Below, one piece after another: positions 38,758-58,339 of a DNA stretch of 64,000 nucleotides. Every line of letters begins with the position of its first letter. Within the stretch, counting starts at the first letter, position 1. The notes beneath the pieces are model-generated. The model was not told where the DNA came from and searched no databases. It saw only the letters and a list, made by a program, of their open reading frames with translations. Made by a program: the position numbers and the translations under genes. Origin of the DNA: Coriobacteriia bacterium (lineage in GTDB: Bacteria > Actinomycetota > Coriobacteriia > Anaerosomatales > Anaerosomataceae). The stretch covers positions 1 to 64,000 of the forward strand of contig JAFGVD010000015.1 in assembly GCA_016938135.1 (NCBI GenBank). Reading direction: 5' to 3'.

Positions 38758-40070
38758 GAGCTGCCCTCTTCATCTGAACCGAACAATGCGTCCCTCTCCT
38801 GATCAACCGAACGGGCGAACCTGTAGGCGTTCCAGCGAGCCCATGTCTGTCCGTTTTCATCGGTGCGAAGCCGGACCTCTCGCGGTACTCCAACATAGAG
38901 TGCCGTCGCGCCGAGAAACACCAGGGCGAAACCGGCGAACAGGGGGATGACACTCCATTCACGGGCGAGAACGAACGTCGCCCAACGTCGCCTTCCGTCA
39001 AGTCGCACTGTAACATCATCAAGAGAGACCGTGTCGGTCGTCATAGTCGACTGAGCCACAACCTCGCCATCAAGCTCACGACGAAGCACGAACTCGGGCT
39101 CGTCGCTCATCGACTGAGTTCCCGGATCTTCCACACACTTCAAACGCAAGACACTCCCGTCTTGCAGCGGTATGTCCATGTAGGTGGGATTCCCGACACC
39201 TAGCGGTTGCGACAAATCGGCGCGCTGCATCAACTCCGTACCATCCGGAAAGGCCACAGTCAGGAAGTACGAGTAGCCGAACCTCTGGTCCTGGTATATC
39301 CTCACGCCCCTTACGACACGCGAGCCGTTAATGGAGACCGTCAGCTGCTCCTGTTGAGCTGAGTCGCCCAACAAGATGACAGTCTCCAGCTGACGTACGC
39401 TCCCGTCATCCCAGAACCGCGGCGTCACCGACGCCAACTCCAGAGGCTCTTCAAGACTTAGAGGACTTGCCAGTACTCCATAATCCTGCGCCACGACTTG
39501 GGTGGTCGCGTCAAGGCTTTCGCCTTCCACAAGAACGACCATGCTTCGCGCTGTGGTCAGGATGGTAAGCACTGCGAACGCAAGTGCGATGAGCATACCT
39601 AGATGGAGCAGTGACGCGCCCCATAGATTCCATGGGTTCTTCAGGAACCTCGATTCGTCGCCGATCCGACCCGCAGCCCAGTAACGAAGCGCGGCCATCG
39701 ACTCTTCAAGACCGGGTCGGTCACCGACAACATGCCAACCCGAAAGCCCGGACCACGTCCGCGGTCGAAACGTGCGGCGATAGTCTCGTCTCAACATATT
39801 AAGCGTCGCGAGACCCAGGGTCAGCCAGCACAGCGCCAGCAGGAACGCGAATCCCCAGGTAGAAACCACGTGATCAAGTCCGGCTGCCTTGAGTGCGTCC
39901 ACAAGGAAAGGAGCCTTGGCCTGTAGCGCATCAAGACCATCCGGACTGGTCACACGTTGCGGGACAAGCGCGGCCAGAAGTACGGCTATCCCTAGGCCGG
40001 AAATCAGCAGCAGAACCGTTCTACGAGATAGCATGACTCGCTTCAGTTGACGACCCAGCGTTCGTGGCAT
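38754..40070 (-). CDS. resB: Cytochrome c biogenesis protein ResB (System II)
   Basis: N-terminal TM cluster, GASLLHLGMLIALAFAVLT, large periplasmic domain with FGYSYFLTVAFPDG; overlaps ccsB by 4 bp. Confidence 0.9.
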   Translation of the reverse strand: MPRTLGRQLKRVMLSRRTVLLLISGLGIAVLLAALVPQRVTSPDGLDALQAKAPFLVDALKAAGLDHVVSTWGFAFLLALCWLTLGLATLNMLRRDYRRTFRPRTWSGLSGWHVVGDRPGLEESMAALRYWAAGRIGDESRFLKNPWNLWGASLLHLGMLIALAFAVLTILTTARSMVVLVEGESLDATTQVVAQDYGVLASPLSLEEPLELASVTPRFWDDGSVRQLETVILLGDSAQQEQLTVSINGSRVVRGVRIYQDQRFGYSYFLTVAFPDGTELMQRADLSQPLGVGNPTYMDIPLQDGSVLRLKCVEDPGTQSMSDEPEFVLRRELDGEVVAQSTMTTDTVSLDDVTVRLDGRRRWATFVLAREWSVIPLFAGFALVFLGATALYVGVPREVRLRTDENGQTWARWNAYRFARSVDQERDALFGSDEEGSS

Positions 40071-40089
40071 ACGAGTCACTGGCGCATCA

Positions 40090-43000
40090 TCACCAGCCTG
40101 TATCGGTCCCGTCGTACACAACGTGCGAGCCGCACCCGCTCGCAGTGGTGACGGTGCAGTTGTTCTTGGTCATGAACGTGTAGCTCACTGAATAATTGCT
40201 GACGTACACGGTGGTCTTGTCTCCCAGATAAGCGTATCTGCTGGGCATGGTGCCATTCGCATCAGCAATCAGGCGCCCGAGCTTGCTTCCGTGCGGCACG
40301 ATAGTGTGACAACGATAGCAGGCAGCAGATGCGTGCGCACCGGTCGACGCAGTGTGCGCTCTGTTATCTGAAAATCCATTGTGGCAGTTGTCACAGAGGA
40401 GGCCCGTCTGTGTACCGGCGGCGAGCCCGTTGATCGTGTATGGGGTACCTGTCGAAGTAAAAGGCCAATAACCCTTGAGCATGTGCGGCAAAGACGAACC
40501 GTGCGGCCCAACAGCAGCCGAATCCGTACTACGCGGTCCATGGCAATCAGAACAGTACATCGTCTGAGTCCCCACAGCCTTCCAACCGGTATCCATCCAG
40601 TCTGCGTTGAGCGCCTTCGTGGAGCCAAGAGGCGCAACCACGGGATGATACGAAGCATTGTTCGGGTTGAAGTCCAGCGCAACGTTAGTCCACAGGTTGG
40701 CGCCTGTCCCACCCCACGATGTGACATTCGTATTAGCACCCGAGTGGCACTTGAAGCAGATCTGGTACTCAGCGTACTTCGAGCTTGCGGTCGTCGTCTT
40801 GGTGTAGCCGGTGGGAGCTGTCCAGTTGGCACCCGGCGAGTACGTAGGCTCCTGACCCCATGCGCCCCAAAGCGGCGAACCGCTCGCGATAGTACTGGTA
40901 CCCGTGGTATGGATCGTCGAGCCTGAGACGCCATTTCCCGTGGCGTGCGCATCGTGGCAGTCCTCGCACTCGACGTGTTTGTTCGCGCTTATCTCCGCCT
41001 GTGTCTCGTCCGACTCATGGACGCCCGAGTACGTGCCGACTCCATGCTTCTTGATGGACCAGGGAGAAGTCGTGTTGGCGTACGACGAACCAAAGAGCAG
41101 CGAGACGCTCTGCGACCTCGCACTCATAGTCTTAACGCCGTAGCCGTCGCTCAGCGTAGAACCCGTGTGACAGGCGAAGCACAGGTTCTCCTCGGTGGGC
41201 GAACCGGTTGCCCCAAGTGCTGCCGCTATCCTGCTCTCGGCTGACGTGTGCGTCCCTATCTTGTAGGTGCCGGTCTGGAACCACGCGCTGGTCCCGGCGC
41301 TGTCGGTGTGACACTTAGTGCAGTTGGCCTGGAAGGCCGAGCCATCGTCATAGCCCACCTTGGCTACGCTGTTAACAGCGTAGTCGTGCGCCTTGCCTGC
41401 ATATGTGCTGCCGCTGATCACAGGAGTGGCCTCTGAGCCGCCGACCTTCTGCTGCGTGCTCTTGGTCTGCGCCACATCGTGACAACTCACACAGATACCG
41501 TACGGAGCCGACGACGAGTAATCGGTGCTCGCTGCCGTGCCGGTGTTGTCGTCGATGCTGGTACGCAGGTTAGTGCTCTTGTCAGTGAAGTAGTTGTGAT
41601 CGGTGTGGCAGCTCACGCAGGCGAGCTTATTGTCAGAAATCGGGTACGTGGCGGTCGCTCCGGGAGCCATGTCCGACCCACGCACATCATCCGTGTCCAT
41701 AGCATGATGATACGTGTCCGTGGATGAATCCATGACGCTATACGCTGAGTGGCACAGATAGCAGTCCATACCACCGGGAGAGACGCCACTGCCGGGATTG
41801 TGAACGTTGATGCCGCTGTCTGCGGTCATCGTACCGTGACACGTAAGACAAGATGCCGAGTCATCACGATAGTGCCCGCTCAGCTCCGGGACCTTGAGTC
41901 CTACGACCCCAGACCTGACTGTGCGGTCTATGCCCTCTATCTCTGCTCCCGCCGAGACAACCGCATACGCGCTACCATTCCAACCGTAGGCGTCTGTATT
42001 CCCCGACGAAGACCCGCACGTCGTGTGGCAGGTGAAGCAGAACTCGCGAACGCCCAACGCATCGGTCAGGTCGAGTTCCCCGTTCGAATCACCGACTGCG
42101 ATCGTGGTATCGGCGCTCGTCTGAGTGATGACCAGCAGCCCGTTGGGAGTGGCGGAACCATGGGGGTTATGGCAGTCGTAGCACGGAAGCGCCGACTCAG
42201 CTGGCAGCGTGCCTGTATCGCTCTCGATCTTGTGGCCAAAGCGAGTGCTCGTCGTCTGAGTGGCTCCCCCGCCCGCCGTCGACGGATAGTACTGCTTGAT
42301 GTTGTAGCCCGTCGTCGTTCCATCGTGGCAATCGAAACACAGTGTGAAGTCAGTGGTCGTGAAAGTGGAGACAAGGCCGTCGTAGTCGTTGTCAGCACGA
42401 TGCGAAACGTGACAGTAGAGGCAGTCCCCCTCCACGCGCGCCGGATCGGCTGCTGATGCCGGGATCGTCGCGTGCGGGTTGTTTGCGTCACTCAGGTACC
42501 CCGGGAACGTGCCCACCACGGGATAGCCTGTGGCGTCCCTGGTGGGAGACGTCACGTCGTACGTCTCCGTACCCGAGTACCAATCATTCGTGCCGTTGTG
42601 ACATGCTAGACACCAGTCGTTTCCGACGCTCGCCACGGCAACGCCGTTGACGGTCTGCGCAGGCAACATCGTTCGCGTGGCTGGATCGAGGTGTGGGGAG
42701 TGGCAATTAGTGCATACGTCAGTGAGGTCCCCATCAGTGGCCGCCTCTTCGACCGAATGCCCACTCGGCATGGCGGCATCGAAAGAGTTCTCACCAGACT
42801 CCACGTTCTTCTCGGCAAGGGTGCCGTCATGGCATGTCAGGCACACGGATGTCTGACCCGGCGTACTACCTGTCTGTCGCATCAAGATACCCGCGTCAGC
42901 GGCTTCGTGGACCGAATGGCACATCTTACAGAGCGCCGTCCCTGTCGTATACGTCCCGTGCGGCGATGGCGGCTCCCATGCTGCTGACACCGGACCCGCG

Positions 43001-45441
43001 ACTTCTGACTGAGCCGAGATGTTGCCCGCTGCATCGTACGCCTTCACTGCGTAGTAGTAGTTCTGGCCGGCGACGCCTGATTCATCGTCGAACGACAACG
43101 AGGTAGTGTTGCCGATAGGCGTGAACGGACCGGCAGGGTTAAGGGCACGCAGCACCGTGTAGCCCACAGGGTCGCCGCTTGAAGCGGCCCACGCGATGGT
43201 GGCGATCGTGGGATCTGCTACACCTGCGGTGAGGGTGCTTATGACGGGGATACTTGGCGGAGTGACATCAAACGAGCTATCCGCGCTATAGAACTCCATC
43301 GTCTGGACATCATTGCTGTTGAGGCCGTCAGAGACCGTCCCGGCCGCTACGCCGAGCGTATAGAGTACATCGGCCGTCTGCGCACTCGTTGTCAGCAGAA
43401 CCGTACGTGAATCCGCCTGCAGCACAGCGCTGGAGACGGTGAGCCCACCGGAGAGCGTGAAACCGCTGGCGTTCTCGAGCGTGACGCTCTCGCTGAAGAT
43501 CGCCTGAACCGTGGTCGAGTCCACGGGCACCAGCGACTGCAAGGTGGGCTTCACATTGTCCACAAGTAGAGAGCTAAGTGCCGAAAGCTCATTGCCGGCC
43601 GCATCACTGAAGAGGGCGGAGACGATGAAAGTGACTCCGTCCGCCTCGGGAACAGTGAACTCCGGGTCCCAAGTGGCAAACCCGGGGCTGGTGGCGGTAG
43701 CATCCGTCCAGACACTGGAGAAGACCCACTCGTCACCATCGAAATCCCAATAGGCATCGTCAGTCGAACGTTTGACCGACACCTTGACCGAGACTATGCC
43801 CGACAACGCATCGGCAGCAGTACCGGTGATCTGGTACTTGGAACCGGGACTCGCCGAGATGCTCGTTCCGGACGAGGGCTGGGTAAGAACGCAGCTCGTG
43901 GAATCAGGTGCCACGTTGTCCGTCACGACGCCTTCGCCCGACATCGTCGACGTCAGCGTGCTGAAGGTCGTCACGACGGCAGGGGCGTTCACACCGATCC
44001 CACCATATTCGATCTGCGAGCCTATACCTTCGCTGTGTTCGCATGAGGCCGCCACATCATAGGCAACCCACACGTCAACATGACCAGCATCCGGGACGAC
44101 GACACTGAGACCCGTGAATGCCGCGTTCGCTCCCGAACCATACGCCATGCTGCCAAGAAGCGTGTCCTCGGTCGCATCAAAGGTTCCGTTGCCATCATCC
44201 AGGTAGATCTTCACCAGTGAGACCGCTGCCGAGGTCAGGGTGTCGGGGCGGTGGACCGTTATCTTGTTGACTGTCACTGCGCCCTGTGAGGCCGCCAGCC
44301 TGATGTTGTCGATCAACACGCTGGTGGCCGGCGATTTCACGTACCTTACCGACGACGGGATATGATCCGCATTGCTCACCGTCAACCTAGGCGTCTTCAC
44401 TGCGAAAACGGTAGGCGAAGCGGGCATCGGCAGCCCGGATATCGTCTGGACGTTCGTGGTGGTGGTCGCCGTGACCTTGGCATCCATGGTGGCGCCATCT
44501 GTCGCACCGGAGGCAACGACATAGGTGACCAGGTACTGCTGCGACGTATCGGTGATCGCCTCGTTCACGGACACGGTCGCGTTGGCACCGGAGAACGTAG
44601 CCGCCGTGGCGTTCAGCTTGACATCGGTGCCTGCAGTCAGCGCCCCGTCGCCATTGACGTCTCTGTAGACATAGACACCGGACACATTGGCCTCGGGAGA
44701 GGTCTTGCTGTTATTCACTGTGAGCGTATTGATGACCGGCCCGGAAGTATCCCCTGCAGTCCTACGCAGTGAAAAGCGGTTGACCACGACCTCCTGCGAT
44801 GGCACTACATCGGCCGCCGTAGGCTGTCCGCCTGTATGCGCCGAGAAAGTGACCGTGTTAGGCGTCGTCGCCGTGTACTCCACGACGATCTCCATCTGGG
44901 TCACGCGGAGGCTTGCGGCATTGGTGAAGCTACCGATCACGATACCTTCAAGAGCCTGGACATCGGCCCAGCTCCAGCTGCCACCACCCGGACGTTCAGT
45001 GAGCGCTTGCTCGAAAGTCTGATATGCCGAAGAAACCGATGACGCCGATGCATAGGTCGTAGAACCGCTCAGGGCAAGACCCAGCTGGATGCTGGCGAAA
45101 GGCGTTCCAACACTCTTGTAGCCTCTTGCCACGACCCGCAGCGTCACCTTGCTGATAGTGCCGGTGGCCGAGGGGTCCGCCAGGCTTACACTTAGCGGGC
45201 TCGTTCCTGATGTGGTGACGTAGGTCGTGTCACCGTCGTTAGCGGAGATCGCCGTAGCGATCGTCCCCGTGTTCGCCGTCCATCCCGACGAACTCACAAC
45301 CGCATCCGGAGCGAGGCTCAGCGTGGCCGCTTGAGCCAGGGAGGTCGCAAAGGCCATGGCACCCGCAACCAGCACAACAAGCCCGACGCGTACCGCGCGG
45401 GCTAGCTTGTCTCCCTTGTGGATCCACCGACTCAAGCGCAT
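40090..45441 (-). CDS. Giant secreted multiheme c-type cytochrome (19 CxxCH) with Ig-like and FN3 domains
   Basis: Signal peptide; DNVKPTLQSLVPVDSTTVQAIFSESV Ig-like; PPSIPVISTLTAG...YYYAVKAYDAAGN FN3; 19 CxxCH motifs counted by eye (CKMCH ... CYRCH). Confidence 0.92.
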   Translation of the reverse strand: MRLSRWIHKGDKLARAVRVGLVVLVAGAMAFATSLAQAATLSLAPDAVVSSSGWTANTGTIATAISANDGDTTYVTTSGTSPLSVSLADPSATGTISKVTLRVVARGYKSVGTPFASIQLGLALSGSTTYASASSVSSAYQTFEQALTERPGGGSWSWADVQALEGIVIGSFTNAASLRVTQMEIVVEYTATTPNTVTFSAHTGGQPTAADVVPSQEVVVNRFSLRRTAGDTSGPVINTLTVNNSKTSPEANVSGVYVYRDVNGDGALTAGTDVKLNATAATFSGANATVSVNEAITDTSQQYLVTYVVASGATDGATMDAKVTATTTTNVQTISGLPMPASPTVFAVKTPRLTVSNADHIPSSVRYVKSPATSVLIDNIRLAASQGAVTVNKITVHRPDTLTSAAVSLVKIYLDDGNGTFDATEDTLLGSMAYGSGANAAFTGLSVVVPDAGHVDVWVAYDVAASCEHSEGIGSQIEYGGIGVNAPAVVTTFSTLTSTMSGEGVVTDNVAPDSTSCVLTQPSSGTSISASPGSKYQITGTAADALSGIVSVKVSVKRSTDDAYWDFDGDEWVFSSVWTDATATSPGFATWDPEFTVPEADGVTFIVSALFSDAAGNELSALSSLLVDNVKPTLQSLVPVDSTTVQAIFSESVTLENASGFTLSGGLTVSSAVLQADSRTVLLTTSAQTADVLYTLGVAAGTVSDGLNSNDVQTMEFYSADSSFDVTPPSIPVISTLTAGVADPTIATIAWAASSGDPVGYTVLRALNPAGPFTPIGNTTSLSFDDESGVAGQNYYYAVKAYDAAGNISAQSEVAGPVSAAWEPPSPHGTYTTGTALCKMCHSVHEAADAGILMRQTGSTPGQTSVCLTCHDGTLAEKNVESGENSFDAAMPSGHSVEEAATDGDLTDVCTNCHSPHLDPATRTMLPAQTVNGVAVASVGNDWCLACHNGTNDWYSGTETYDVTSPTRDATGYPVVGTFPGYLSDANNPHATIPASAADPARVEGDCLYCHVSHRADNDYDGLVSTFTTTDFTLCFDCHDGTTTGYNIKQYYPSTAGGGATQTTSTRFGHKIESDTGTLPAESALPCYDCHNPHGSATPNGLLVITQTSADTTIAVGDSNGELDLTDALGVREFCFTCHTTCGSSSGNTDAYGWNGSAYAVVSAGAEIEGIDRTVRSGVVGLKVPELSGHYRDDSASCLTCHGTMTADSGINVHNPGSGVSPGGMDCYLCHSAYSVMDSSTDTYHHAMDTDDVRGSDMAPGATATYPISDNKLACVSCHTDHNYFTDKSTNLRTSIDDNTGTAASTDYSSSAPYGICVSCHDVAQTKSTQQKVGGSEATPVISGSTYAGKAHDYAVNSVAKVGYDDGSAFQANCTKCHTDSAGTSAWFQTGTYKIGTHTSAESRIAAALGATGSPTEENLCFACHTGSTLSDGYGVKTMSARSQSVSLLFGSSYANTTSPWSIKKHGVGTYSGVHESDETQAEISANKHVECEDCHDAHATGNGVSGSTIHTTGTSTIASGSPLWGAWGQEPTYSPGANWTAPTGYTKTTTASSKYAEYQICFKCHSGANTNVTSWGGTGANLWTNVALDFNPNNASYHPVVAPLGSTKALNADWMDTGWKAVGTQTMYCSDCHGPRSTDSAAVGPHGSSLPHMLKGYWPFTSTGTPYTINGLAAGTQTGLLCDNCHNGFSDNRAHTASTGAHASAACYRCHTIVPHGSKLGRLIADANGTMPSRYAYLGDKTTVYVSNYSVSYTFMTKNNCTVTTASGCGSHVVYDGTDTGW

Positions 45442-45464
45442 ACCCCCATGCATGCTCTAATCAC

Positions 45465-45485
45465 CGATGCAACAGTCGTGCATCG
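45465..45485. promoter_or_regulatory. Hyphenated palindrome in leader of the giant cytochrome gene
   Basis: CGATGCA-acagtcg-TGCATCG. Confidence 0.4.
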
Positions 45486-45493
45486 TCACCATA

Positions 45494-45513
45494 GATGTGA
45501 ATCGTGTCACATC
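45494..45513. promoter_or_regulatory. Candidate Rex or CRP/FNR-type operator upstream of the giant cytochrome
   Basis: GATGTGA-ATCGTG-TCACATC; TGTGA-N6-TCACA core; ~53-72 nt upstream of the proposed start. Confidence 0.55.
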
Positions 45514-45579
45514 CCATAGTGACATCTTCGGCAGCTTCTTACCAGGTCTTAACGCTCCTCAGAAGCGCGATGTATCGGT

Positions 45580-46572
45580 CTACTCGGCAACAGGCAAGCG
45601 CACGTTGTAGACCACTATCTTGCCGGTGTCAGCATCTGTCACATATAGACGCTGATCGGCGTCGATCCAGCACGCGTCGCGGGGGCTTGAGAGCGCCGCA
45701 TCCGGGTCCGTCAAATCAGCAGTCCAGATGCGGCGAATGCCGTCGTCGGCCACCACAGAAACACGTTTGCCGAACGTCTCTATCACGAACTCCTCGGAGT
45801 CTATTCCCTGCAAGACTCCGCGTGGCAGCGAGTAGCGCTCAGAGAGGCTACGGACGAGTCTGCCGCTTTGCGCGTCCAACACCACCACGCGTCCCGCGTT
45901 CGAGTCCGCAACATGCAGCCCGTCATCCGCAAGGAACATGCCTCCGCAGTAAGTCAGCGCCGGCATCAGTTCCTGCCCGAGCGTTCGCAGGTACCGACCA
46001 TCATCTGCCGAGAACACCAGGATCGTATGGCTCGCCCCATCGGCGACGAAGAGCTCGCCATCGGCGAATGCGAGAGCCGTTGGCTGCAACGGGACAATCT
46101 CGGCGTCATCTCCCAAGATCATCAGAAGCTCCGCGTTCTTGCGCGTGCTCAACACGAGTACTCGCAACGAAGCGCTGTCAATGACCGCGATACGGTGATC
46201 ATCCAAGACGGCGACGTCTGACGGGTAGGCGCTGCTGGCACCCTCGGCAACCGGGATCTGGATGTCATCCAGCCGTCGGGCATCCAGCGTGAACACCGCG
46301 ACCTTGCCGGCGTCTGACTCGGCTATGTAGAGGTTCTTGCCGTCCGAGTCGATGCCCATGGGGCCCTGCAATGCCGTATCCTCGGGCGCCGGAAATCGAC
46401 CGGCGTACATGATCTCTTCGGTGGAGCCTTCAGGAAACCCGGGGAATTCCACCCCCCCGCCTGCAGGCTGCAGCACCCAATAGAGGAGGGCTGCAGTGCC
46501 AAGAGCGAGCACAAGCGCGAGCGCGACAAGGAATGCCCGGTGCTTGGGAGAGTCGCTCATATTCAGGCGCAT
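45580..46572 (-). CDS. NHL-repeat / six-bladed beta-propeller membrane-anchored protein
   Basis: N-terminal TM, then repeats GPMGIDSDGKNLYIAES.AGKVAVF, LADDGLHVADSNAGRVVVLDAQSG. Confidence 0.85.
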   Translation of the reverse strand: MRLNMSDSPKHRAFLVALALVLALGTAALLYWVLQPAGGGVEFPGFPEGSTEEIMYAGRFPAPEDTALQGPMGIDSDGKNLYIAESDAGKVAVFTLDARRLDDIQIPVAEGASSAYPSDVAVLDDHRIAVIDSASLRVLVLSTRKNAELLMILGDDAEIVPLQPTALAFADGELFVADGASHTILVFSADDGRYLRTLGQELMPALTYCGGMFLADDGLHVADSNAGRVVVLDAQSGRLVRSLSERYSLPRGVLQGIDSEEFVIETFGKRVSVVADDGIRRIWTADLTDPDAALSSPRDACWIDADQRLYVTDADTGKIVVYNVRLPVAE

Positions 46573-46659
46573 GCTGGGCTCCTCGGCAGGTCTAGGCACG
46601 ATTAGTTGATAGTATCGCAAAACGCCGCCGGAGCTCAGGCATGGCGTCCTGGCATCAAC

Positions 46660-46689
46660 GCAGTCAGCCGTCTATCATGAAATGACTGC
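46660..46689. repeat. Inverted repeat GCAGTCA-N16-TGACTGC in divergent promoter region
   Basis: Read directly in the intergenic region between the 45580 (-) and 46732 (+) genes. Confidence 0.4.
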
Positions 46690-46731
46690 TTACCTGACCT
46701 CACTGCGACCAATGTCGCCCGGCGCGGATGG

Positions 46732-47703
46732 ATGCCCTTCAACGTGAGAAAACCGAAGTTCCGCCTGGTTATCTCCATAGCATTGCTCATAGGGTTGCTG
46801 CTCGTTGTGACGGCCATCGTCGGATCGTCACCCACGGCATGTGGCGCGTGCCACACTATGTCTCCTTACACGGAGGCACTACAGGAGTCCGCCCATTCGG
46901 ACATAGCCTGCTACGAATGCCACCTTCCTGCGGGCGCATGGGACTGGCCGGCGTTCAAGACGCATGAAGTCCTTGGGATGTACCCGGCTTCCATCATCAA
47001 GGCAAGGCTCGACGGCGCAGCAACGATGACCTCCCGGACCGCATGTCTGAAGTGCCACTCCGAGGTGCTCGAGGACGTCATCGAAGCCGGGGGTATCCGC
47101 ATCCAGCATGACTCATGCGCGCCTGAGGGCTCGTGCGATAGCTGTCACAGCACCGTAGCGCATGGCGAGAGCACGCGGTGGATCTTGGAACCCGCCATGG
47201 AGGACTGCATCGGCTGCCACCGGGACGAGAAAGCGCCAACCACATGCGACCTGTGCCACGCGGGCAAGACCACCGCAGAGCGCCTCTCAAGGGGCTCATG
47301 GGCGATCACTCACGGTCCGGAGTGGGAGACCACGCACGGCATGGGGGATCTACGTACGTGCGACGCCTGCCACGATGACAAGAAGTGTGCCTCCTGTCAC
47401 GACATCAAGCTGCCCCACCCGATGGACTTCGGGTCCACCCACCCTGCAGTCGCACTAGAGAACCCCGAGTCGTGCGAGACCTGTCACGACAGCGTTGCTT
47501 TGTGCGATGCATGTCACGGCATATCGATGCCTCACCCCGAGGGCTTCTTGTCAGAGCACTCCAAGATTGCCACCGGCACCGACGATGCGGTCTGCATCAG
47601 ATGCCACAAAGAAGCAGACTGCGTACGTTGCCACGTGGCACACACCCATCCGGGATCGACCGACGGACTGATCGGCGCCGGCCTCCCTGAGACGGGGAGG
47701 TGA
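46732..47703 (+). CDS. Membrane-anchored NapC/NrfH-like multiheme cytochrome (12 CxxCH)
   Basis: N-terminal TM; CGACHTMSPYTEALQESAHSDIACYECH; 12 CxxCH counted. Confidence 0.9.
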   Translation: MPFNVRKPKFRLVISIALLIGLLLVVTAIVGSSPTACGACHTMSPYTEALQESAHSDIACYECHLPAGAWDWPAFKTHEVLGMYPASIIKARLDGAATMTSRTACLKCHSEVLEDVIEAGGIRIQHDSCAPEGSCDSCHSTVAHGESTRWILEPAMEDCIGCHRDEKAPTTCDLCHAGKTTAERLSRGSWAITHGPEWETTHGMGDLRTCDACHDDKKCASCHDIKLPHPMDFGSTHPAVALENPESCETCHDSVALCDACHGISMPHPEGFLSEHSKIATGTDDAVCIRCHKEADCVRCHVAHTHPGSTDGLIGAGLPETGR

Positions 47704-47707
47704 CGGG

Positions 47708-48802
47708 GTGCAGGAGTACATCGACCAGATAGCCGACGTCATCGGCAACCCGACATCCAACCTCGTGGTCGCAGCACTGCTCCTGGCGGCTGTCACGCTC
47801 ATCGTGCTGATCCTCATCCTGGTGGCGCTGATCTTCCTCATGCCATCGCGGCACCACGACGAGGACGATGAGGGCGACCAGGACGATGAGGACATTCCCG
47901 AGAAGCCAACGCCTGCTCCTAAGCGAGAGGCACGCAAGCCTCTTCCCCGGAAACTGCAGATCTGGCTGTTTGTCGGCATCACGGCGGCGACAATCGCCAC
48001 TGCGTACGGCGTGACCTCAAGCGATGACTATTGCGCGAACACCTGCCACGTGATGGCGCCTTCGGTGGCCTCCTGGAACGAGGGGGCGCACAGCGGCATC
48101 TCTTGCGTCCGATGCCATGAAGGCAGGCTGGTGGTCTCGGCAGCATCCGGAAGCATGTCGCGGCTGCGCCAGCTTGCCGCACAGCTTGAGGGGAAAGAGC
48201 CCGTCTCGGCAGTCGTGTCATCGCGCACGTGCCTGAGCTGCCACGCAGCGCAGCTAGAGGGCTCGGTGGAGACGTCATCCGGGATCATAGTGAGCCACGC
48301 CGAACCGCTTGAAGCGGGCATGAGCTGCGATACATGCCACACCGCGGTGGCACATGAGCGCGAGGTCGCATCGCAAGCCACCATCATGACGCAGTGCCTG
48401 ACATGCCACGAAGGCACGAAGGCTTCCGCCGAGTGCTCCACGTGCCATACGGGAGATCCGGGAGCCACTCCTGTGTTCGAGCGCATCTACACGAGCACTG
48501 AGCTCCCGCAGCCCACCTGCGGCGGTTGCCATTCCGAGGAGAGCTGCGATGCGTGCCACGGCATACGGATGCCGCATTCGCAGGCATTCATCGAGGGAGA
48601 GCATGCCAAAGATGCCGGCTTCTACCGCAAAGAGGTGTGCTGGAACTGCCACCTGAAGACCGACTGCGGCGCATGCCACGGGGACTTCGACAACTCGCAC
48701 CCCGGGGACTTCTTCCAGACGCACAAGACGCTCTCACGCGAGTCCACGTGCAACACATGCCATCGCAACCATGAAGGTCCGTTCTGCGACAGGTGCCACT
48801 AG
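47708..48802 (+). CDS. Membrane-anchored NapC-like multiheme cytochrome (11 CxxCH + 1 CX3CH)
   Basis: GTG start; two hydrophobic segments; CANTCHVMAPSVASWNEGAHSGISCVRCH; 11 CxxCH plus one CX3CH. Confidence 0.9.
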   Translation: MQEYIDQIADVIGNPTSNLVVAALLLAAVTLIVLILILVALIFLMPSRHHDEDDEGDQDDEDIPEKPTPAPKREARKPLPRKLQIWLFVGITAATIATAYGVTSSDDYCANTCHVMAPSVASWNEGAHSGISCVRCHEGRLVVSAASGSMSRLRQLAAQLEGKEPVSAVVSSRTCLSCHAAQLEGSVETSSGIIVSHAEPLEAGMSCDTCHTAVAHEREVASQATIMTQCLTCHEGTKASAECSTCHTGDPGATPVFERIYTSTELPQPTCGGCHSEESCDACHGIRMPHSQAFIEGEHAKDAGFYRKEVCWNCHLKTDCGACHGDFDNSHPGDFFQTHKTLSRESTCNTCHRNHEGPFCDRCH

Positions 48803-48887
48803 GCGGCTGAACAGCGGCGAGTGGCAGGATCCATCAGGCAACCGGGCCTCGCCCTCAGGAGAGACAAGACGCCACGACATGACAGAA

Positions 48888-48913
48888 ACGGCCCCCTCTT
48901 GCGAGGGGGCCGT
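48888..48913. terminator. Strong bidirectional terminator between convergent cytochrome genes
   Basis: ACGGCCCCCTC-TTGC-GAGGGGGCCGT perfect stem with 4-nt loop; minus strand followed by TTTCTGT. Confidence 0.85.
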
Positions 48914-48945
48914 AACTCTTGTGCTAAAGCCTGTTGAATCCGACT

Positions 48946-49851
48946 CTAGAAGTCGAGACCAACACCTGTGGATGCGTCAGCACGGTGGCACTTCAAGCAC
49001 GCGCCGTCCTCGGAAGGATCGGCCGCACCCGTTGCGCTACCCACTGAAGCGAAGTTGACCGCGCTCAACAGGAAGCGATTGCCGCTCGTGTAGTGCGGGA
49101 AGTTGTCGGCAGCAGAGGCGCCGTCGGTCTCGCCCGCATCGTGACAGCTACGGCAATACGTGCTCGGTGCCCACGCAACAGTCGAATTGGCCGCGATTGT
49201 CGCCTTACTGTTCGCATAGTTGGCTGTGGCGTCACCCATGATGTGCATGTTTGCAGTAGCGTCGTCATCGTAGTCATTGGCCCAGTACGTGTGGCACTGC
49301 GAGCAGAACGCCGTGACGACACCATTGCGATCAGTACCGGTTGTGAAGTCGTAGGTCGTCTCAGCTGCAGTCACAGTACCGGACTGACCTCCGATAGCGG
49401 ACTTCAGGATCTTGGTGTTGATGTCACCTGCCGCGGTCGTTGAGATCGCACCTGCACCGTGAACGGTGTGGCAGTCGACGCACGTAGAACCGGAGCCTGC
49501 ATAGTGGTTGTTCTCGTAGTCGGTGGTGTAGTTTGCAGCGACGCTGTCGTACACCTTGACACTGGACACGGAGTTGGTGATATGGCAATACTCGCACGCG
49601 TTTGCAACCGTACCGCGCAGCAGTACTTCACCGCCGGCAGTCGCACGGTGGACCGCATGGCAGACAGCGCACTTGACGGTAGTCGTGCCATAGCCTGCAT
49701 GCGGGGTCTGAACAGTGGCGTTGGCACCAGTAGTGCCCCAAGCGGAGTACTGGTCGCCGTCAACGCCTGCGACGGCAAGTGCTGTGCCGGCGAACATCAT
49801 GGTGAACGCGCAAGCAAGTACAAGTACGATGGCTAGCTTCTTACTAGTCAT
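48946..49851 (-). CDS. Secreted hexaheme c-type cytochrome, OmcS-like layout (candidate nanowire subunit)
   Basis: Signal peptide MTSKKLAIVLVLACAFTMMFAGTALA; six CxxCH (CAVCH, CEYCH, CVDCH, CSQCH, CRSCH, CLKCH) plus exactly six other His; RBS GAAGGGAG before ATG. Confidence 0.9.
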   Translation of the reverse strand: MTSKKLAIVLVLACAFTMMFAGTALAVAGVDGDQYSAWGTTGANATVQTPHAGYGTTTVKCAVCHAVHRATAGGEVLLRGTVANACEYCHITNSVSSVKVYDSVAANYTTDYENNHYAGSGSTCVDCHTVHGAGAISTTAAGDINTKILKSAIGGQSGTVTAAETTYDFTTGTDRNGVVTAFCSQCHTYWANDYDDDATANMHIMGDATANYANSKATIAANSTVAWAPSTYCRSCHDAGETDGASAADNFPHYTSGNRFLLSAVNFASVGSATGAADPSEDGACLKCHRADASTGVGLDF

Positions 49852-49950
49852 TGAATCTCCCTTCGAATGAATCCCCATCATAATTTGATTTCACCTCCCC
49901 CGTTGAAGAATCAGATACTCGCAAAGCGAGGAATCTCCCCATTCACCCCA

Positions 49951-49970
49951 GCTGTGAATTGCTTCACAGC
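49951..49970. promoter_or_regulatory. Candidate Rex or CRP/FNR-type operator upstream of the hexaheme cytochrome
   Basis: GCTGTGAA-TTGC-TTCACAGC perfect 8-bp inverted repeat; ~100-119 nt upstream of the start codon. Confidence 0.65.
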
Positions 49971-50040
49971 CCTTAAGAACACTATCGGCAGACTACCACT
50001 CACCGATAACGGCAAACAAGCAAAACGACCTATCTACCCA

Positions 50041-51252
50041 TCAGAAATTGTCATCCGGGTGTTCGCCGACCTCCATATTCGAGAGCTCGGACGACTTTCG
50101 ACTCTTGGATACCTTCATCATGACCGCCACGAAAAGCAGCAATACGAGCGGAACCGCGCAGACCCACACTGGTCCCACGAGCGCCCTGCGCACCGTAGGG
50201 CCAAGCTCTGTAGATCCGCTGTCTGGTATGCGAACGATCTGAACCCGAGCGTTGGCGGTGTCAGCCACAACGAACCAATCGCGCTCAGTGTCATAGGCGA
50301 TGCCTGTTGGGTATGCAAAGAGACCGTCGCTTTCGCCGAAATCTCCGTAACGGTCGATTATCGAACCGTCGGTCTTATCGACAACGACCATGTTGAAACC
50401 GAACGGATCCACCAAAACGAGGCGTTCATTTGCATCCATACACATACCGGCGGGCAGCTGAAGCCCTGTGCCGCTGGTCTCCTCGGAGGTCTCCTCACCC
50501 ATGGCCTGATTGCCTCCGCCGGTGATACCTGCATCTGTCGTCCAGAGAAGATCTCCTTCCGAGCTGAAGGCCTTGACCCTGGCGTTAAGAGTGTCTGCAA
50601 CATAGATGACACCGTCGGCGTCAACGACGATTCCTTGCGGCAAATCCAGCTGCTCCAGCGAACTGCCTCTCCCACCCCAGCTCCCCACGGATTCGCCCTC
50701 GACAGTGAACACCGATACACCGGCCGGCCCCGTGACATACACACGGTCTCCCGCCACCTCGCAATCAAGCGGCTGACTGACCTCCCATGATCGAAGCAGT
50801 TCACCTTGCCGACTCAAGACAAGCAGGCGATCAGCGCCGTTGGCGCACACGTAGACCTCGCCGTCCTGACTCACAGAGATGCCCTTGGGCACCACCCAAG
50901 GGATATCCGCGACCACGCCAGAGAGCTCAATTCGGCGTCGAAGCGTGCCGTCGGGCCCAAACTCGAAGATCGAATTCAGCTGGGTGTCACTCACCCAGAT
51001 CGCACCGCCGGAAGATATCTCAACGTGATCGGGCGCGATAAACTGCTCTTCCGCAGACGGGCCGAATCCATAGATCGAACGAACCCACTCCAGACCCTCC
51101 GGCAGACGAACCTCATCAGGACTCCCCACTGGCTCCAGAAGAGTAGCGATGAAGTAGCCCAGCCCACCAAGCAGCATGAGCAATACCAGCAGTATCGCGA
51201 TGAGCCCAGCCCGCAGGCCCATACGATTGCCGCCTGCGCTATGACTACTCAT
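50041..51252 (-). CDS. NHL-repeat beta-propeller, membrane-anchored
   Basis: TM ILLVLLMLLGGLGYFIATLL; blades FIAPDHVEISSGGAIWVSDTQLNSIFEFGPDG, LPQGIVVDADGVIYVADTLNARVKAFSSEG. Confidence 0.88.
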   Translation of the reverse strand: MSSHSAGGNRMGLRAGLIAILLVLLMLLGGLGYFIATLLEPVGSPDEVRLPEGLEWVRSIYGFGPSAEEQFIAPDHVEISSGGAIWVSDTQLNSIFEFGPDGTLRRRIELSGVVADIPWVVPKGISVSQDGEVYVCANGADRLLVLSRQGELLRSWEVSQPLDCEVAGDRVYVTGPAGVSVFTVEGESVGSWGGRGSSLEQLDLPQGIVVDADGVIYVADTLNARVKAFSSEGDLLWTTDAGITGGGNQAMGEETSEETSGTGLQLPAGMCMDANERLVLVDPFGFNMVVVDKTDGSIIDRYGDFGESDGLFAYPTGIAYDTERDWFVVADTANARVQIVRIPDSGSTELGPTVRRALVGPVWVCAVPLVLLLFVAVMMKVSKSRKSSELSNMEVGEHPDDNF

Positions 51253-52021
51253 CGCTACCGCCCCTCTCAAGGGCCGATAGCCCCTCCAGTGCCTGTTGGA
51301 AATCGGGAATCATGCTCAGCGCCTTCTCATAGTCAGCGCGGGCAGCGGCTGTATCTCCAACGGATGACTCAAGATCGCCGCGCCAAGCGAGCACATCTGC
51401 CATCGTGGGGAGCTCTTCTAGGGCACCGTCGAGCGCAGCGATGGCCTCATCAACCCGATCAAGGCCCTCGAGAATCTGCGCCCTCAGCAACCACGCGTCG
51501 ACGATCTCTTCGGAAGAGAACGGCGAGGTGATCCCCATTGCAGCTTGCTTGTCGATGGTTGCCTGTTTCTCTGCTTGCGCTTCAGTCAGCGCACGCTCCG
51601 CAACACCAAGCGCCCCCTCGCTGTCACCGGTCGCATCAAGAAGACGAGCCTCCTCGATCGAGACCACCGCGGAGGCCGTGCTTTCCGCGGCTCGATACGC
51701 ATTCATAACAGACGTCGCCTTCGAGTAACGTTCGACCTCGATGAGCGCGCGCATGTACTGGGCCACTACTGTCGGGTCATTCGGAGTCGCCTTGAAAGAC
51801 CTGTCGAGGGTGGCTATCTCCTTCTCGGCAAGAGTACGTGGCGCCTGTCCGGTCAGGACGCCTGTATAGACGACGTAGATGACAGCGGTCAGCACGAAGA
51901 CCAACATCACAAGCACGGCCACCAACAATCGCCGCACCCAGGGGTCTGCCGCAGGCGCCTTTCTGCTACGACGGGAAGTCTCTTGCTCCATGGATGTAGA
52001 ACCTCGTTCCAATGTCGACAT
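51245..52021 (-). CDS. Membrane-anchored TPR protein
   Basis: TM VAVLVMLVFVLTAVIYVVY; TPR-like VDEAIAALDGALEELPTMADVLAWRGDLESSVGDTAAARADYEKAL. Confidence 0.8.
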   Translation of the reverse strand: MSTLERGSTSMEQETSRRSRKAPAADPWVRRLLVAVLVMLVFVLTAVIYVVYTGVLTGQAPRTLAEKEIATLDRSFKATPNDPTVVAQYMRALIEVERYSKATSVMNAYRAAESTASAVVSIEEARLLDATGDSEGALGVAERALTEAQAEKQATIDKQAAMGITSPFSSEEIVDAWLLRAQILEGLDRVDEAIAALDGALEELPTMADVLAWRGDLESSVGDTAAARADYEKALSMIPDFQQALEGLSALERGGSDE

Positions 52022-52145
52022 GATGAAGAACCCTGCGCGAACTCGAACTCACTTGATACTCACGGGAATGAAAGCGACGGCAAGTCGTCCCTGCGACAGA
52101 AGATGCAACACGCTTCTTTGAGGCCCCCTAGATATTGCACGATCG

Positions 52146-53624
52146 TTAGAAGTCGATGCCTACCTTGTCGTGGCACTGCAGACACTGGCCGTCGAACGGA
52201 TAGCTGTAGTTGCGCAACATGAAGTTCTGACGTGTCCCATGAGGATCGTGACACGTAGACGTACATGTTAGCGGCTTCTGCGCGGCAACGTCATAGTGCT
52301 CGGGCCGAACGGGATGGTTGTTCCGATAAACGGTGGCGCTCGCCTCGTCGTAGTCCGCCGCGGCATGGCACTGCAAGCAGACCTCGGGGTTGGCCTTCAC
52401 GAGTATGGGTGCATAGTCCGAACCGTGTGGCGTATGGCAGCGGATGCACAGGATCCCGTCGTGATCGGATGCATCATACGAGGTCTGGATAGCCTGGGCG
52501 TGACACTGATAGCACATGTCGTTCCCCTCGGCTGCGAGCAAACCGGGATAGTCCGCACCGTGAGGATCGTGGCAGTCACCACAGTTCAGATCGGCGGTAC
52601 CCACCGGGTGGTGACTCGACTTCAAGAAGTCGTCTTGGATGTCCCCGTGGCAGATATAGCATACGTCGGGCTGCTCTTTGATGAGCAGCGGACGATAGTC
52701 CGAGCCGTGCGGCTCATGACATCCGGTGCAGTTGTCGTAGAGGAAGGGCTGGTGCTGCACGGACTTGAGACTGAGCGGCGCCACGCTGGGGTGACAGGTG
52801 AAACAAAGGTCGCGCTGGTTGTCGACCAAGATCCCCTCGTAGCGTGAAGCGTGCGGGTCGTGGCAGTTGGTGCAGTAGCGCCCTTCAACCGGCGGGTGCA
52901 CCTGCTCGCGCGCGAGCTCCGGACCCATCCGATGGCAGGTGATGCACAGGTCTTTCTCGGTGATTTTAAGAAGCGCCTTATTGTCCGACGCGTGCGGGCT
53001 GTGGCAGTTGGTGCAGTACCCACCCACGAACGGAGCATGAGTGTACTCATACGAGCGCATCGGGCCCATGTCGCCATGGCAGATCCAGCACAGCTCGTCT
53101 TTGGAGGTGGTGAAATCCGAGTTGATGCCTTTGACCTGCTCCTCGGTGATGCTCTTGATATCGCCGCCGGCGTCCTCGGCCGTCTGACCCTCTGCCGAAT
53201 AGAACGCGTCGACGATCATCTTGAGCGGAAGCCACTCGACGAGCGTCTTGGTGCGTTCCCATGTGAGCGAAGCGCTCTCGTATACGGTCGTCGTCTGTAG
53301 CTCGCCGTGCGGCGTGTGACAGGTGGTGCAGCCGCGCTGCTCGAACGGCAGGTGGACTGAAGACATCGAGAAGGATGGAATGAGATCGGAATGGCACTGC
53401 AGGCACTCGAGGTTCTCGGTCACGACCTTGATTTCATCGGGACCCTTACTGATCCAGGTCTCAACGATGGTGGTGACCCCAAGTAGAAGGAGGAGCAGTA
53501 TCAGGACGGCGGCGAACGCAGCCCTACCACGCTTAGGGCCACCATCTATGTCCAGTCCCTCCGGGGAAGCGAGTACGCCTTCCTCGAGGATCTCTGGGTC
53601 GCCCAATGAGCCTCCCTCAACCAT
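52146..53624 (-). CDS. Membrane-anchored multiheme cytochrome (14 CxxCH + 1 CX3CH; doubled-CxxCH repeats)
   Basis: TM AFAAVLILLLLLLGVTTIVETW; repeating C..CH...(15-30)...C..CH.PHGSDY units; CTSTCHDPHG is CX3CH. Confidence 0.9.
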   Translation of the reverse strand: MVEGGSLGDPEILEEGVLASPEGLDIDGGPKRGRAAFAAVLILLLLLLGVTTIVETWISKGPDEIKVVTENLECLQCHSDLIPSFSMSSVHLPFEQRGCTTCHTPHGELQTTTVYESASLTWERTKTLVEWLPLKMIVDAFYSAEGQTAEDAGGDIKSITEEQVKGINSDFTTSKDELCWICHGDMGPMRSYEYTHAPFVGGYCTNCHSPHASDNKALLKITEKDLCITCHRMGPELAREQVHPPVEGRYCTNCHDPHASRYEGILVDNQRDLCFTCHPSVAPLSLKSVQHQPFLYDNCTGCHEPHGSDYRPLLIKEQPDVCYICHGDIQDDFLKSSHHPVGTADLNCGDCHDPHGADYPGLLAAEGNDMCYQCHAQAIQTSYDASDHDGILCIRCHTPHGSDYAPILVKANPEVCLQCHAAADYDEASATVYRNNHPVRPEHYDVAAQKPLTCTSTCHDPHGTRQNFMLRNYSYPFDGQCLQCHDKVGIDF

Positions 53625-53728
53625 GCGTGAAGACCGGCGCACAAAGACAGTGCGCCCAGTCAGCAGTCTAACATGCCCCCGATGCCTGTTGAATACTTAA
53701 CGGTACTTCGACGTCGACCACGCATCCC

Positions 53729-54898
53729 CTAGTTGAGCAACCTCACCATCTGCACTCGGTTGTTCTCCTTGTCGGCGACGACAACGAAGTTGCGGTACAC
53801 CTCTACGTCGTTGGAGAAGTTGAACTGACCCGGGTCGACGCCTCGCTCGCCATACATCGCCACCAGCTCACCGTCCGCAGAGATGCGTGTGATGCCGAAG
53901 CGGAATGCATCTGTAACCAGCACGGAACCGTCAGACGCTACCGCCAGACCGCGCGGAAGCTCGATCCCTGTGGTTGAAGCCGCGGCATCAGTCCCGATCG
54001 TTGCAGTGGTCGCGCTAGTTTCAGCGGTTCCGGAGCTCTCGGCGGTCCCGCTCGTCTCGGCAGAGACGAATGACTTGCCGAAGTTCCAAAGCGGCTCTCC
54101 GTCGGGCGTGAACGCGGTCACGCGCGCATGGTTGGAGTCCGAGACATACACCGTGCCGTCCTCGCCAACAGCAAGTCCGTTAGGGTGGTCCAGGTCGCCT
54201 GGTTCAATCCCTGGCTTGCCCCACTGCGTGATGAGCTCGCCTTCCAGGGTGAAGACGAAGATCTGGTACTGGTCGGTGGCGTAGATGCGGTCCTGGTAGA
54301 CAGCCACGTCCGTCACGGCGATCCCGAGACCGTCTTGCCCGGAAGAGCCACGACCAACCACCTGATCCGGCTCCGGGAAACGGCGCAACGGCTTGCCGTC
54401 GGCGTCGAACACCTCGATGGAGTCGTTGCGGAAGCTCGCGACGTAGACGTTGCCCTCATCGTCGGTGTCGATACCCACGGGGAAGTTCAGACTCCCGGGC
54501 TCATAGGTGTTCTGTGCGCCGGCAAGCGGCTTGCCCACTCCAAAGCTGCCGAACTCGAAAAGGAAACGCCCGGAGGAGTCAAAGACGCAGACGCGGTTGT
54601 TCTCGCTGTCGGTGACGTAGACCCTGCCCTCGCTACCGACGGCAACGCCCATGGGACGACCGAACAAGGGGTTCTCCCCTTCGCCGGGACCAAACACCTG
54701 CCACACCGGCTGAACGCCTTGCGTAGGCTCCAGGTCCACCAGGGAGTCCGGCTTGTCCAGCAACACAAGCAGGTAGAGGATCAGCCCCACGAGCGCGATG
54801 GCAAGCATCACCGCCAAAGCGATGAACGCCTGGCGTGGCGTCAACATGAAACGCTTGCGAGGGGCCTTGACGGGGTCGACCGCTGCTGTAGGCATCAT
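53729..54898 (-). CDS. NHL-repeat beta-propeller, membrane-anchored
   Basis: FGRPMGVAVGSEGRVYVTDSENNRVCVFDSSGRFLFEFG; LDHPNGLAVGEDGTVYVSDSNHARVTAF. Confidence 0.9.
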   Translation of the reverse strand: MMPTAAVDPVKAPRKRFMLTPRQAFIALAVMLAIALVGLILYLLVLLDKPDSLVDLEPTQGVQPVWQVFGPGEGENPLFGRPMGVAVGSEGRVYVTDSENNRVCVFDSSGRFLFEFGSFGVGKPLAGAQNTYEPGSLNFPVGIDTDDEGNVYVASFRNDSIEVFDADGKPLRRFPEPDQVVGRGSSGQDGLGIAVTDVAVYQDRIYATDQYQIFVFTLEGELITQWGKPGIEPGDLDHPNGLAVGEDGTVYVSDSNHARVTAFTPDGEPLWNFGKSFVSAETSGTAESSGTAETSATTATIGTDAAASTTGIELPRGLAVASDGSVLVTDAFRFGITRISADGELVAMYGERGVDPGQFNFSNDVEVYRNFVVVADKENNRVQMVRLLN

Positions 54899-55533
54899 TC
54901 GGCTCCAAGAGCAGTGAGGGCGTCACGCGCTTCAAGAAGATCAGGCGCGTAGCGAAGGGCCTCTTCGTAACTTGCTATAGCATCGTCAGTGCGACCGAGC
55001 TTCTCGTAGCAAAGACCGGCCAGATACTGGAGGTCGGCGAGTTCCGGACGGGCCTCCGCAACAGGCTCCACGGCGACCAGCGCGGACTTGTACTGGCCCT
55101 TCTCGATGTAGTACTCACCCAGGGCTTTGGCCGCAAGCGCGTGATCCGGCGCTATCTCAAGCACTTCCCAGAAGGTCTGCTCGGCGAGCTTCTGCTCACC
55201 CGTCTGCATGTAGATGACCGCCTTGTTGTACAGCGCGGCGGTGTTGCCGGGGTCCTCCACCAGCACCAGGTCGTACTGCTCGACGGCCTTGTCGTACTCC
55301 TCGTTCTGTTGATAGGCGAAACCGAGCGAGAGGCGATCGTCGGTGTTGTCCGGATCGGCCGAGACCTTCTGCTCCCAGTCCTCGACGGCATAGGTCTCAG
55401 GGGTCACCGGGCCTTCATCAACGATGAGACCTCGAAGCATCCATCCGCCAAGACCCACAACAGCGAGAAGCAAGATGAGCACAAGCAGCGCGAGCCACGC
55501 GGGAACGAGCTGATCCTCATGATCCGAGGTCAT
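54895..55533 (-). CDS. Membrane-anchored TPR protein
   Basis: TM WLALLVLILLLAVVGLGGWML; YDKAVEQYDLVLVEDPGNTAALYNKAVIYMQTG repeats. Confidence 0.88.
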   Translation of the reverse strand: MTSDHEDQLVPAWLALLVLILLLAVVGLGGWMLRGLIVDEGPVTPETYAVEDWEQKVSADPDNTDDRLSLGFAYQQNEEYDKAVEQYDLVLVEDPGNTAALYNKAVIYMQTGEQKLAEQTFWEVLEIAPDHALAAKALGEYYIEKGQYKSALVAVEPVAEARPELADLQYLAGLCYEKLGRTDDAIASYEEALRYAPDLLEARDALTALGAE

Positions 55534-56171
55534 CGCTCCCCGCCTTGAGCCAGGTAGAACGAGAGTATCTGCAGATCCGTGGACATACAGACCTGCCGCA
55601 CGGCCACGTCATCAGGGACCTGGAGACGCACGGGTGCAAGGTTGAGGATCGCTTTGATGCCTGCACCCACCACGCGGTCCACCAGCGCCTGGGTCTCAGC
55701 GGCAGGCGTGGCCATGATCACGATCTCCACGCCCTCCTCGGCAAGTCCCGCGTCAAGTTCGTCTACCGACCTGATCGTCACGCCGTCAGCATCCGTCCCG
55801 ATCTTATCGGGACTCGCGTCGAACACCGCCACGATGTCAAACCCTCTGTCCGAGAAACCGGTGTAGCTCTTAAGGGCGCCGCCAAGGCGTCCGTAGCCCA
55901 CGATGGCAGCGCGGCGAAGCTCGGATACGCCAAGCGACTTGGAGACGTGCGCGATAAGCGCCTCGACGTCGTAGCCGATGCCACGCGTTCCAAGCTCACC
56001 GAGATATGACAGATCCTTGCGCACCTGCGCGGCGTTGGTTCCCACCATCTCGGCGATCTCCACCGAGCTGATGACCGGCTTGCGATCTTGCTGCGCCTGA
56101 AGCAGGCAGCGCAGATAGACGGGCAGCCTTTGGATCGTTGTCTCAGGTATTTGCGTGCGTTCCATCATCAC
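55530..56171 (-). CDS. rex: Redox-sensing transcriptional repressor Rex
   Basis: RKDLSYLGELGTRGIGYDVEALIAHVSKSLGV, AAIVGYGRLGGALKSYTGF, NLAPVRLQVPDDVAVRQVCMSTDLQILSFYLAQ. Confidence 0.95.
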   Translation of the reverse strand: MMMERTQIPETTIQRLPVYLRCLLQAQQDRKPVISSVEIAEMVGTNAAQVRKDLSYLGELGTRGIGYDVEALIAHVSKSLGVSELRRAAIVGYGRLGGALKSYTGFSDRGFDIVAVFDASPDKIGTDADGVTIRSVDELDAGLAEEGVEIVIMATPAAETQALVDRVVGAGIKAILNLAPVRLQVPDDVAVRQVCMSTDLQILSFYLAQGGER

Positions 56172-58331: not shown

Positions 58332-58339
58332 ATCTCCTC

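Follow-up and report, generated by a model that had tools for sequence, protein, structure and literature searches.

The monoderm Thermincola ferriacetica carries the ImdcA-CwcA locus, a single run of genes leading from a NapC-like pair with 10 and 12 haems to a hexahaem cytochrome, for which a wire crossing the cell wall was proposed; in the same work, CwcA was modelled on OmcS and suggested to polymerise through the wall (PMC7911101). In Thermincola and Carboxydocella genomes, the genes follow the order NapC-like 10-haem, NapC-like 12-haem, 17-haem protein, TPR, NHL and hexahaem, and gene spacing suggests that the Thermincola run corresponds to Tfer_0070 to Tfer_0075. A second described system belongs to Parvivirga hydrogeniphila, a member of the order Anaerosomatales and an obligate reducer of Fe(III) that uses H2 or formate (PMC9686372). 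Its cluster in strain Es71-Z0120 (MCL4079323-32) was published as a gene list comprising MtrA/OmcH homologues, a putative quinol-oxidising multihaem protein, cytochrome c biogenesis genes and Rex; the paper makes no mention of NHL and TPR partners, of a module structure or of the wire family (PMC9686372). Finally, the Gram-positive Dethiobacter alkaliphilus has clusters 1-Fe-T to 3-Fe-T, in which multihaem cytochromes occur with NHL and TPR proteins and with homologues of MtrA/MtoA and CymA (PMC10376724).

The locus described here lies in the window, the whole 64,000-nucleotide stretch of DNA analysed, and is a genuine extracellular electron transfer locus of this already published type rather than a new system (PMC9686372, PMC7911101, PMC10376724). 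Like the Thermincola locus, it combines a NapC-like pair, an MtrA-like multihaem protein, TPR and NHL proteins and a hexahaem cytochrome, and a membrane-anchored multihaem protein of the NapC/ImdcA type sits beside an OmcS-like hexahaem protein in a single-membrane host. Whereas the Thermincola run contains one TPR/NHL pair and a 17-haem protein, the window locus has two such pairs, a third NHL protein and a 15-haem protein; it also adds Rex and ResB/CcsA, carries a giant 19-haem protein instead of OcwA, and has its NapC-like pair inverted. The Parvivirga cluster, compared by its description, is probably the counterpart of the window locus. The Dethiobacter clusters differ from it in gene content and order, and Rex is not mentioned in the accessible parts of that report (PMC10376724). 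What is new here is a module of five genes, encoding a TPR protein, an NHL protein, an OmcS-family hexahaem cytochrome and two NapC-like 12-haem proteins, which recurs across the order and is present four times in this genome. For the reading that the window locus serves extracellular electron transfer in an anaerobic monoderm, working by the electron path proposed below, we estimate a probability of about 0.77.

Gene content of the locus and its host

The locus and its edges comprise the following genes.

55530..56171, minus strand: Rex1, NADH/NAD+-sensing repressor (Pfam PF06971 and PF02629 above cut-off), opening a long minus-strand run
54895..55533, minus strand: TPR-C, membrane-anchored TPR protein (Pfam TPR; one N-terminal TM segment by hydropathy)
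53729..54898, minus strand: NHL-C, membrane-anchored NHL-repeat propeller (Pfam NHL, 4.9e-27)
52146..53642, minus strand: MHC15, 15-haem MtrA-like protein (14 CxxCH and one CTSTCH; TM anchor at residues 37-66)
51245..52021, minus strand: TPR-B, membrane-anchored, assigned to the hexahaem module (Pfam TPR; module position in relatives)
50041..51270, minus strand: NHL-B, propeller of the hexahaem module (Pfam NHL, 1.8e-17; TM-like stretches 15-48 and 360-390)
48946..49881, minus strand: HEXA6, secreted hexahaem cytochrome of the OmcS/CwcA family (6 CxxCH)
47708..48802, plus strand: NC12b, second 12-haem TM protein (11 CxxCH and one CxxxCH; TM; first haem CANTCH)
46732..47703, plus strand: NC12a, 12-haem protein with N-terminal TM at 7-40 (12 CxxCH; Cytochrome_C7; NapC/NrfH-like first-haem motif)
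45580..46620, minus strand: NHL-A, membrane-anchored propeller adjoining the giant cytochrome (Pfam NHL, 1.2e-14)
40090..45453, minus strand: giant exported 19-haem protein, 1787 aa (19 CxxCH)
38754..40121, minus strand: ResB, System II cytochrome c maturation (PF05140, 6.8e-13)
37927..38757, minus strand: CcsA/CcsB-type cytochrome c assembly protein (PF01578, Cytochrom_C_asm, 2e-37)
35839..36495, minus strand: Rex2, second Rex-like regulator at the other locus edge (PF06971 and PF02629)

An earlier note, made from the sequence alone, had listed five multihaem cytochromes with 19, 12, 12, 6 and 15 haem motifs together with three NHL propellers, two TPR proteins, a Rex and ResB/CcsB. The cytochrome reading frames and counts were recovered at the positions it gave, with support from Pfam (Paired_CXXCH_1, Cytochrome_C7 and Cytochrom_c3_2), and the partner genes were likewise present and confirmed by Pfam (NHL repeats in three, TPR in two, Put_DNA-bind_N and CoA_binding in Rex). 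The haem motif counts of the five cytochromes are far above chance: shuffled proteins carried a mean of about 0.1 motifs or fewer, with a maximum of 2. Two placements need correcting. ResB and CcsA exist as claimed, at 37927-40121, just outside the interval 40090-56171 to which they had been assigned, and complex I (subunits A-D and H-N), which had been called adjacent to the locus, lies about 24 kb from it, at 6.4-16.1 kb of the window. No NADH module of complex I was seen within the window.

On the minus strand, transcription would proceed through Rex1, TPR-C, NHL-C, MHC15, TPR-B, NHL-B and HEXA6. NC12a and NC12b lie on the plus strand, opposite to the remaining locus genes, and NHL-A, the giant 19-haem gene, ResB and CcsA (37927-46620) are on the minus strand, divergent from this pair. 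The TPR-C gene overlaps both Rex1 and NHL-C by 4 bases, and TPR-B overlaps NHL-B; since the gene ends overlap, Rex1/TPR-C/NHL-C and TPR-B/NHL-B are each probably one transcript. Scans for promoters and terminators gave chance-level results only. Every NHL and TPR protein of the locus has an N-terminal TM segment by hydropathy, so their repeats should sit outside the membrane.

The host assembly is a 2.13-Mb metagenome-assembled genome, 99% complete, from the order Anaerosomatales (Coriobacteriia), and the window is its contig 40. In sequence searches with the 15-haem protein, the named relatives are Coriobacteriia and Anaerosomatales assemblies of the same kind, the nearest at 84% identity. 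No Omp85 was found in this genome by a search that was positive in seven control genomes, nor was a haem-copper oxidase found in it; with both absent, the host is most likely a monoderm anaerobe. The locus also contains no barrel gene; the earlier note had likewise seen no porin gene, as expected for a monoderm. One molybdopterin oxidoreductase was found in the genome, its gene carrying an in-frame TGA. Multihaem genes number at least 19, close to the figures published for the two isolates of Anaerosomatales, 17 and 18 (PMC9686372). They include genes at L177:5775-10025 (1416 aa, 15 motifs), L180:6178-8496 (772 aa, 11 motifs), L178:7840-9114 (424 aa, 7 motifs), L181:2278-3870 (530 aa, 10 motifs) and L182:6297-7463 (388 aa, 11 motifs). 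Directly upstream of Rex1, at 56196-60831, lie an O-antigen-ligase-like gene and probable sugar-transfer genes, which keep their place next to the locus in 23 of 35 relatives; their product may be a surface polysaccharide surrounding the wires.

Cytochromes of the locus and the proposed electron path

The 15-haem protein MHC15 is, according to its predicted structure, an MtrA-type wire with a TM anchor and without a porin, in line with its earlier description as a membrane-anchored wire. By sequence it matched chain 6r2q_A with a phmmer E-value of 1.2e-18; we take this chain to be MtrA, the entry being the Mtr complex, although the chain is labelled otherwise in the file. An AF2 model built with 36 homologues had a mean pLDDT of 78.8, with most of the core above 90, and its sole significant Foldseek match in the PDB was again 6r2q_A (E 9e-8; TM 0.62 by target length). 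Across the order, the 15 haem motifs, CTSTCH among them, are invariant, and a matching series of further histidines is conserved. MHC15 shares with the MtrA of MtrCAB (6r2q) an extended haem-wire fold, but differs from it in haem number (15 against 10), in its TM anchor and in having no MtrB porin; the locus does not contain a decahaem protein within an outer-membrane barrel. Of 61 relatives, 48 have a homologue. When 149 genomes were drawn from the class, every one of the 48 matches belonged to Anaerosomatales. In one relative (G038:C19:6253-8940), a 932-codon open frame contains several stretches resembling parts of MHC15, as if tandem-duplicated into a longer wire.

Sequence profiles support the placement of HEXA6 in the OmcS/CwcA family. 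Alignment with the CwcA-type hexahaem proteins of Thermincola and Carboxydocella reached an hhalign probability of 99.2%, and a profile of that group alone had OmcS as its top match (1.1e-6). A wider family profile, A3, matched OmcS at 2.8e-16 over profile positions 48-292 of 303, near full length; it takes in four CwcA-type rows, and without those rows the OmcS match reaches only E 0.006. Six CxxCH motifs and exactly six other histidines are invariant among six orthologues, a pattern from which we infer six haems with bis-His ligation. The AF2 monomer had a pLDDT of 42, too low for the model to be used. The family resembles the OmcS filament of Geobacter (6ef8, 6nef) in its six haems and near full-length profile match; it differs in that identity is low and the host of HEXA6 is without an outer membrane.

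That NC12a and NC12b form a NapC-like 12-haem pair is consistent with their topology. NC12a has the CxxCH.M-type first-haem motif CGACHTM directly after its TM segment, and NC12b has CANTCHVM after a further hydrophobic stretch beyond its TM; the Pfam NapC/NirT family (PF03264), in contrast, stayed below cut-off for NC12b (Cytochrom_NNT, 1.8e-4; 21.7 bits against 24.1) and gave no match for NC12a. Homologues of NC12a were found in 36 of 41 relatives.

In the giant protein, the 19 haems are confined to residues 842-1716; the protein has MtrC/MtrF domain II/IV and Paired_CXXCH matches. Searched by sequence against PDB chains, it matched nothing at E 0.01, although the set included 6i5b (OcwA), and the locus was found to lack a terminal reductase of the OcwA type. 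Ahead of the haems, residues 46-830 form a stretch of about 780 residues with no Pfam match. By eye, this haem-free part looks Ig/Fn3-like. The homologue of the giant protein in the same genus is only 46% identical and lacks the stretch (1787 against 1027 aa), a degree of change that could be expected if the locus were a decayed or silent relic in this lineage. Such decay is very improbable, as all frames are open, all haem motifs are intact and the 15-haem protein keeps 84% identity to its counterpart in the genus's other species.

OmcS-type and MtrA-type proteins are known as electron carriers, not enzymes, and none of the five cytochromes matched an octahaem reductase family in Pfam. Both points argue against the possibility that the cluster reduces soluble acceptors outside the membrane (for example sulfite, tetrathionate, humics or Fe(III)-citrate) or stores electrons, with no contact with solids. 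We consider this improbable, although octahaem-type reductases and SmhB have been tied to soluble acceptors in Gram-positives (PMC10376724, PMC7829351).

Under the preferred reading, extracellular electron transfer through the wall, System II (ResB/CcsA) would mature the c-type cytochromes outside the membrane. NC12a and NC12b, judging from their TM segments and first-haem motifs, would exchange electrons with the quinone pool. MHC15, an MtrA-type wire without a barrel, would take electrons from the membrane into the wall, a route suggested by its predicted fold. HEXA6, by virtue of its family, may stack into a polymer of the OmcS/CwcA type through the peptidoglycan, and the exported 19-haem protein could provide the outer contact. 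From gene order and co-diversification, each membrane-anchored NHL or TPR protein may serve a single cytochrome as its dedicated partner in assembly or anchoring, and Rex would couple expression to the NADH/NAD+ ratio. Electrons would probably exit to Fe(III) or a partner; uptake is also conceivable. The core of the electron path across a single-membrane envelope, which the earlier note had sketched, held in all tests available; the locus is accompanied in this genome by others of the kind.

Conservation of the locus and a recurring five-gene module

The note had proposed looking for the gene order in related genomes, and the gene set proved to be kept across the order Anaerosomatales. In 35 related loci, the same-strand partners of MHC15 included TPR-C (26/35), NHL-C (26/35), CcsA (22/35) and Rex1 (16/35); Rex2 (19/35) and NHL-A (17/35) also occurred. 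The large outer cytochrome is the variable part: many genomes have a form of about 1014-1224 aa with 17-19 haems, whereas others have one of about 1312-1381 aa with 33 haems or one of 1623-1754 aa with 37-45. The 37-45-haem proteins near the 15-haem gene were seen in L064 (127-5280), L034, L048, L058 and L060, and the C-terminal end of the L064 protein is an F5/8 type C (carbohydrate-binding-like) domain. Most likely, the conserved set wires the membrane to the outside through the thick cell wall.

Besides the window, three sites in the host genome carry NHL, hexahaem, NC12a and NC12b genes in this order (L179 on C39, L183 on C20 and L184 on C45); the TPR gene is present in the one of these that is uncut by a contig end, and two of the three contain CX4CH haem motifs. 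Requiring a hexahaem and an NHL gene gave a set of 32 modules from the host genome and its relatives, most of them also with TPR and NC12b. The window's own module is the rearranged one among the 32. Counting CX4CH, 31 of the 32 module cytochromes have six haem sites. An OmcE-like tetrahaem class, considered for module cytochromes with an apparent four haems, was dropped, as nearly all have six sites once CX4CH is included.

Across 28 modules, the trees of NC12a, NC12b, the cytochrome and the NHL protein are congruent (Mantel r 0.78-0.87; 0 of 2000 permutations as high, a figure that is not a strict probability because the permutations ignore species relatedness), and paralogues within one genome occupy different clades in the NC12a and NHL trees. 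The module is thus inherited and diversifies as a unit, and since its parts diversified together, the NHL/TPR pair probably serves one wire only. In 28 of 41 distant loci, those of diderms among them, NHL propellers likewise lie close to MtrA-like genes, and a beta-propeller beside large cytochromes was noted earlier in SEEP-SRB1, according to a paper citing that work (PMC12246660). A tentative extension, which we hold to be possible but somewhat short of likely, is that the TPR, NHL, hexahaem and NapC-like pair make up a nanowire module complete in itself, whose membrane-anchored NHL and TPR proteins serve as the dedicated export, polymerisation and anchoring apparatus of one wall-crossing filament. 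Several modules per Anaerosomatales cell would then give several distinct wires, and NHL proteins beside MtrA-type wires in diderms would have the same role.

Expression, direction of electron flow and significance

Two perfect palindromes lie directly upstream of cytochrome genes.

45496..45511, no strand: palindrome TGTGAATCGTGTCACA upstream of the giant cytochrome, candidate Rex/CRP-type operator
49953..49968, no strand: palindrome TGTGAATTGCTTCACA upstream of the hexahaem gene, candidate Rex/CRP-type operator

Perfect TGTGAN6TCACA occurs three times in the 2.13 Mb, two of the copies being these sites; the pattern was picked out after several had been examined. The palindromes are not kept in the same-genus relative and are not common to the family, and scans for the Rex-operator consensus with two mismatches gave chance numbers only.

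Multihaem wires are reversible in principle, and the same machinery might therefore work mainly inward, with electrodes, Fe(II) or partner cells as the electron donors and quinone, hydrogenase or formate dehydrogenase as the recipients. The case for such a direction comes from EMTCatB1, an actinobacterium placed by genome search in the same family as the window's genome: it dominates a biocathode, and under closed circuit five of its multihaem genes are in the top 10% of transcripts, which was interpreted as electron uptake (PMC7943316). By counting minus-strand genes from nuoC (1c0337), one of these genes, 1c0363, falls at the 33-haem or the 15-haem protein of the orthologous locus, and no other multihaem gene was found within 975-1090 kb of the EMTCatB1-type genome. 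By the same kind of counting, 1d0125 very probably corresponds to one of three multihaem genes in a module at 148-151.5 kb, the sole multihaem genes found in the first 220 kb. Very probably, then, going by gene counting, one cytochrome of the orthologous EMTCatB1 locus is among the most abundant published transcripts. Mainly inward flow nevertheless seems rather unlikely for the window locus, given that Parvivirga hydrogeniphila, with its corresponding cluster, is an obligate Fe(III) reducer (PMC9686372). Counting against the preferred reading is Anaerosoma tenue, of the same order: despite its 18 multihaem genes, it is said in the discussion of the paper not to use Fe(III) to grow (PMC9686372).

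The locus bears on two general questions, how electrons cross thick peptidoglycan and how cytochrome filaments come to be assembled. It shows that an MtrA-type wire is retained without a porin in an actinobacterial order, and the compact, recurrent module makes its NHL and TPR members concrete candidate assembly factors for OmcS-like wires.
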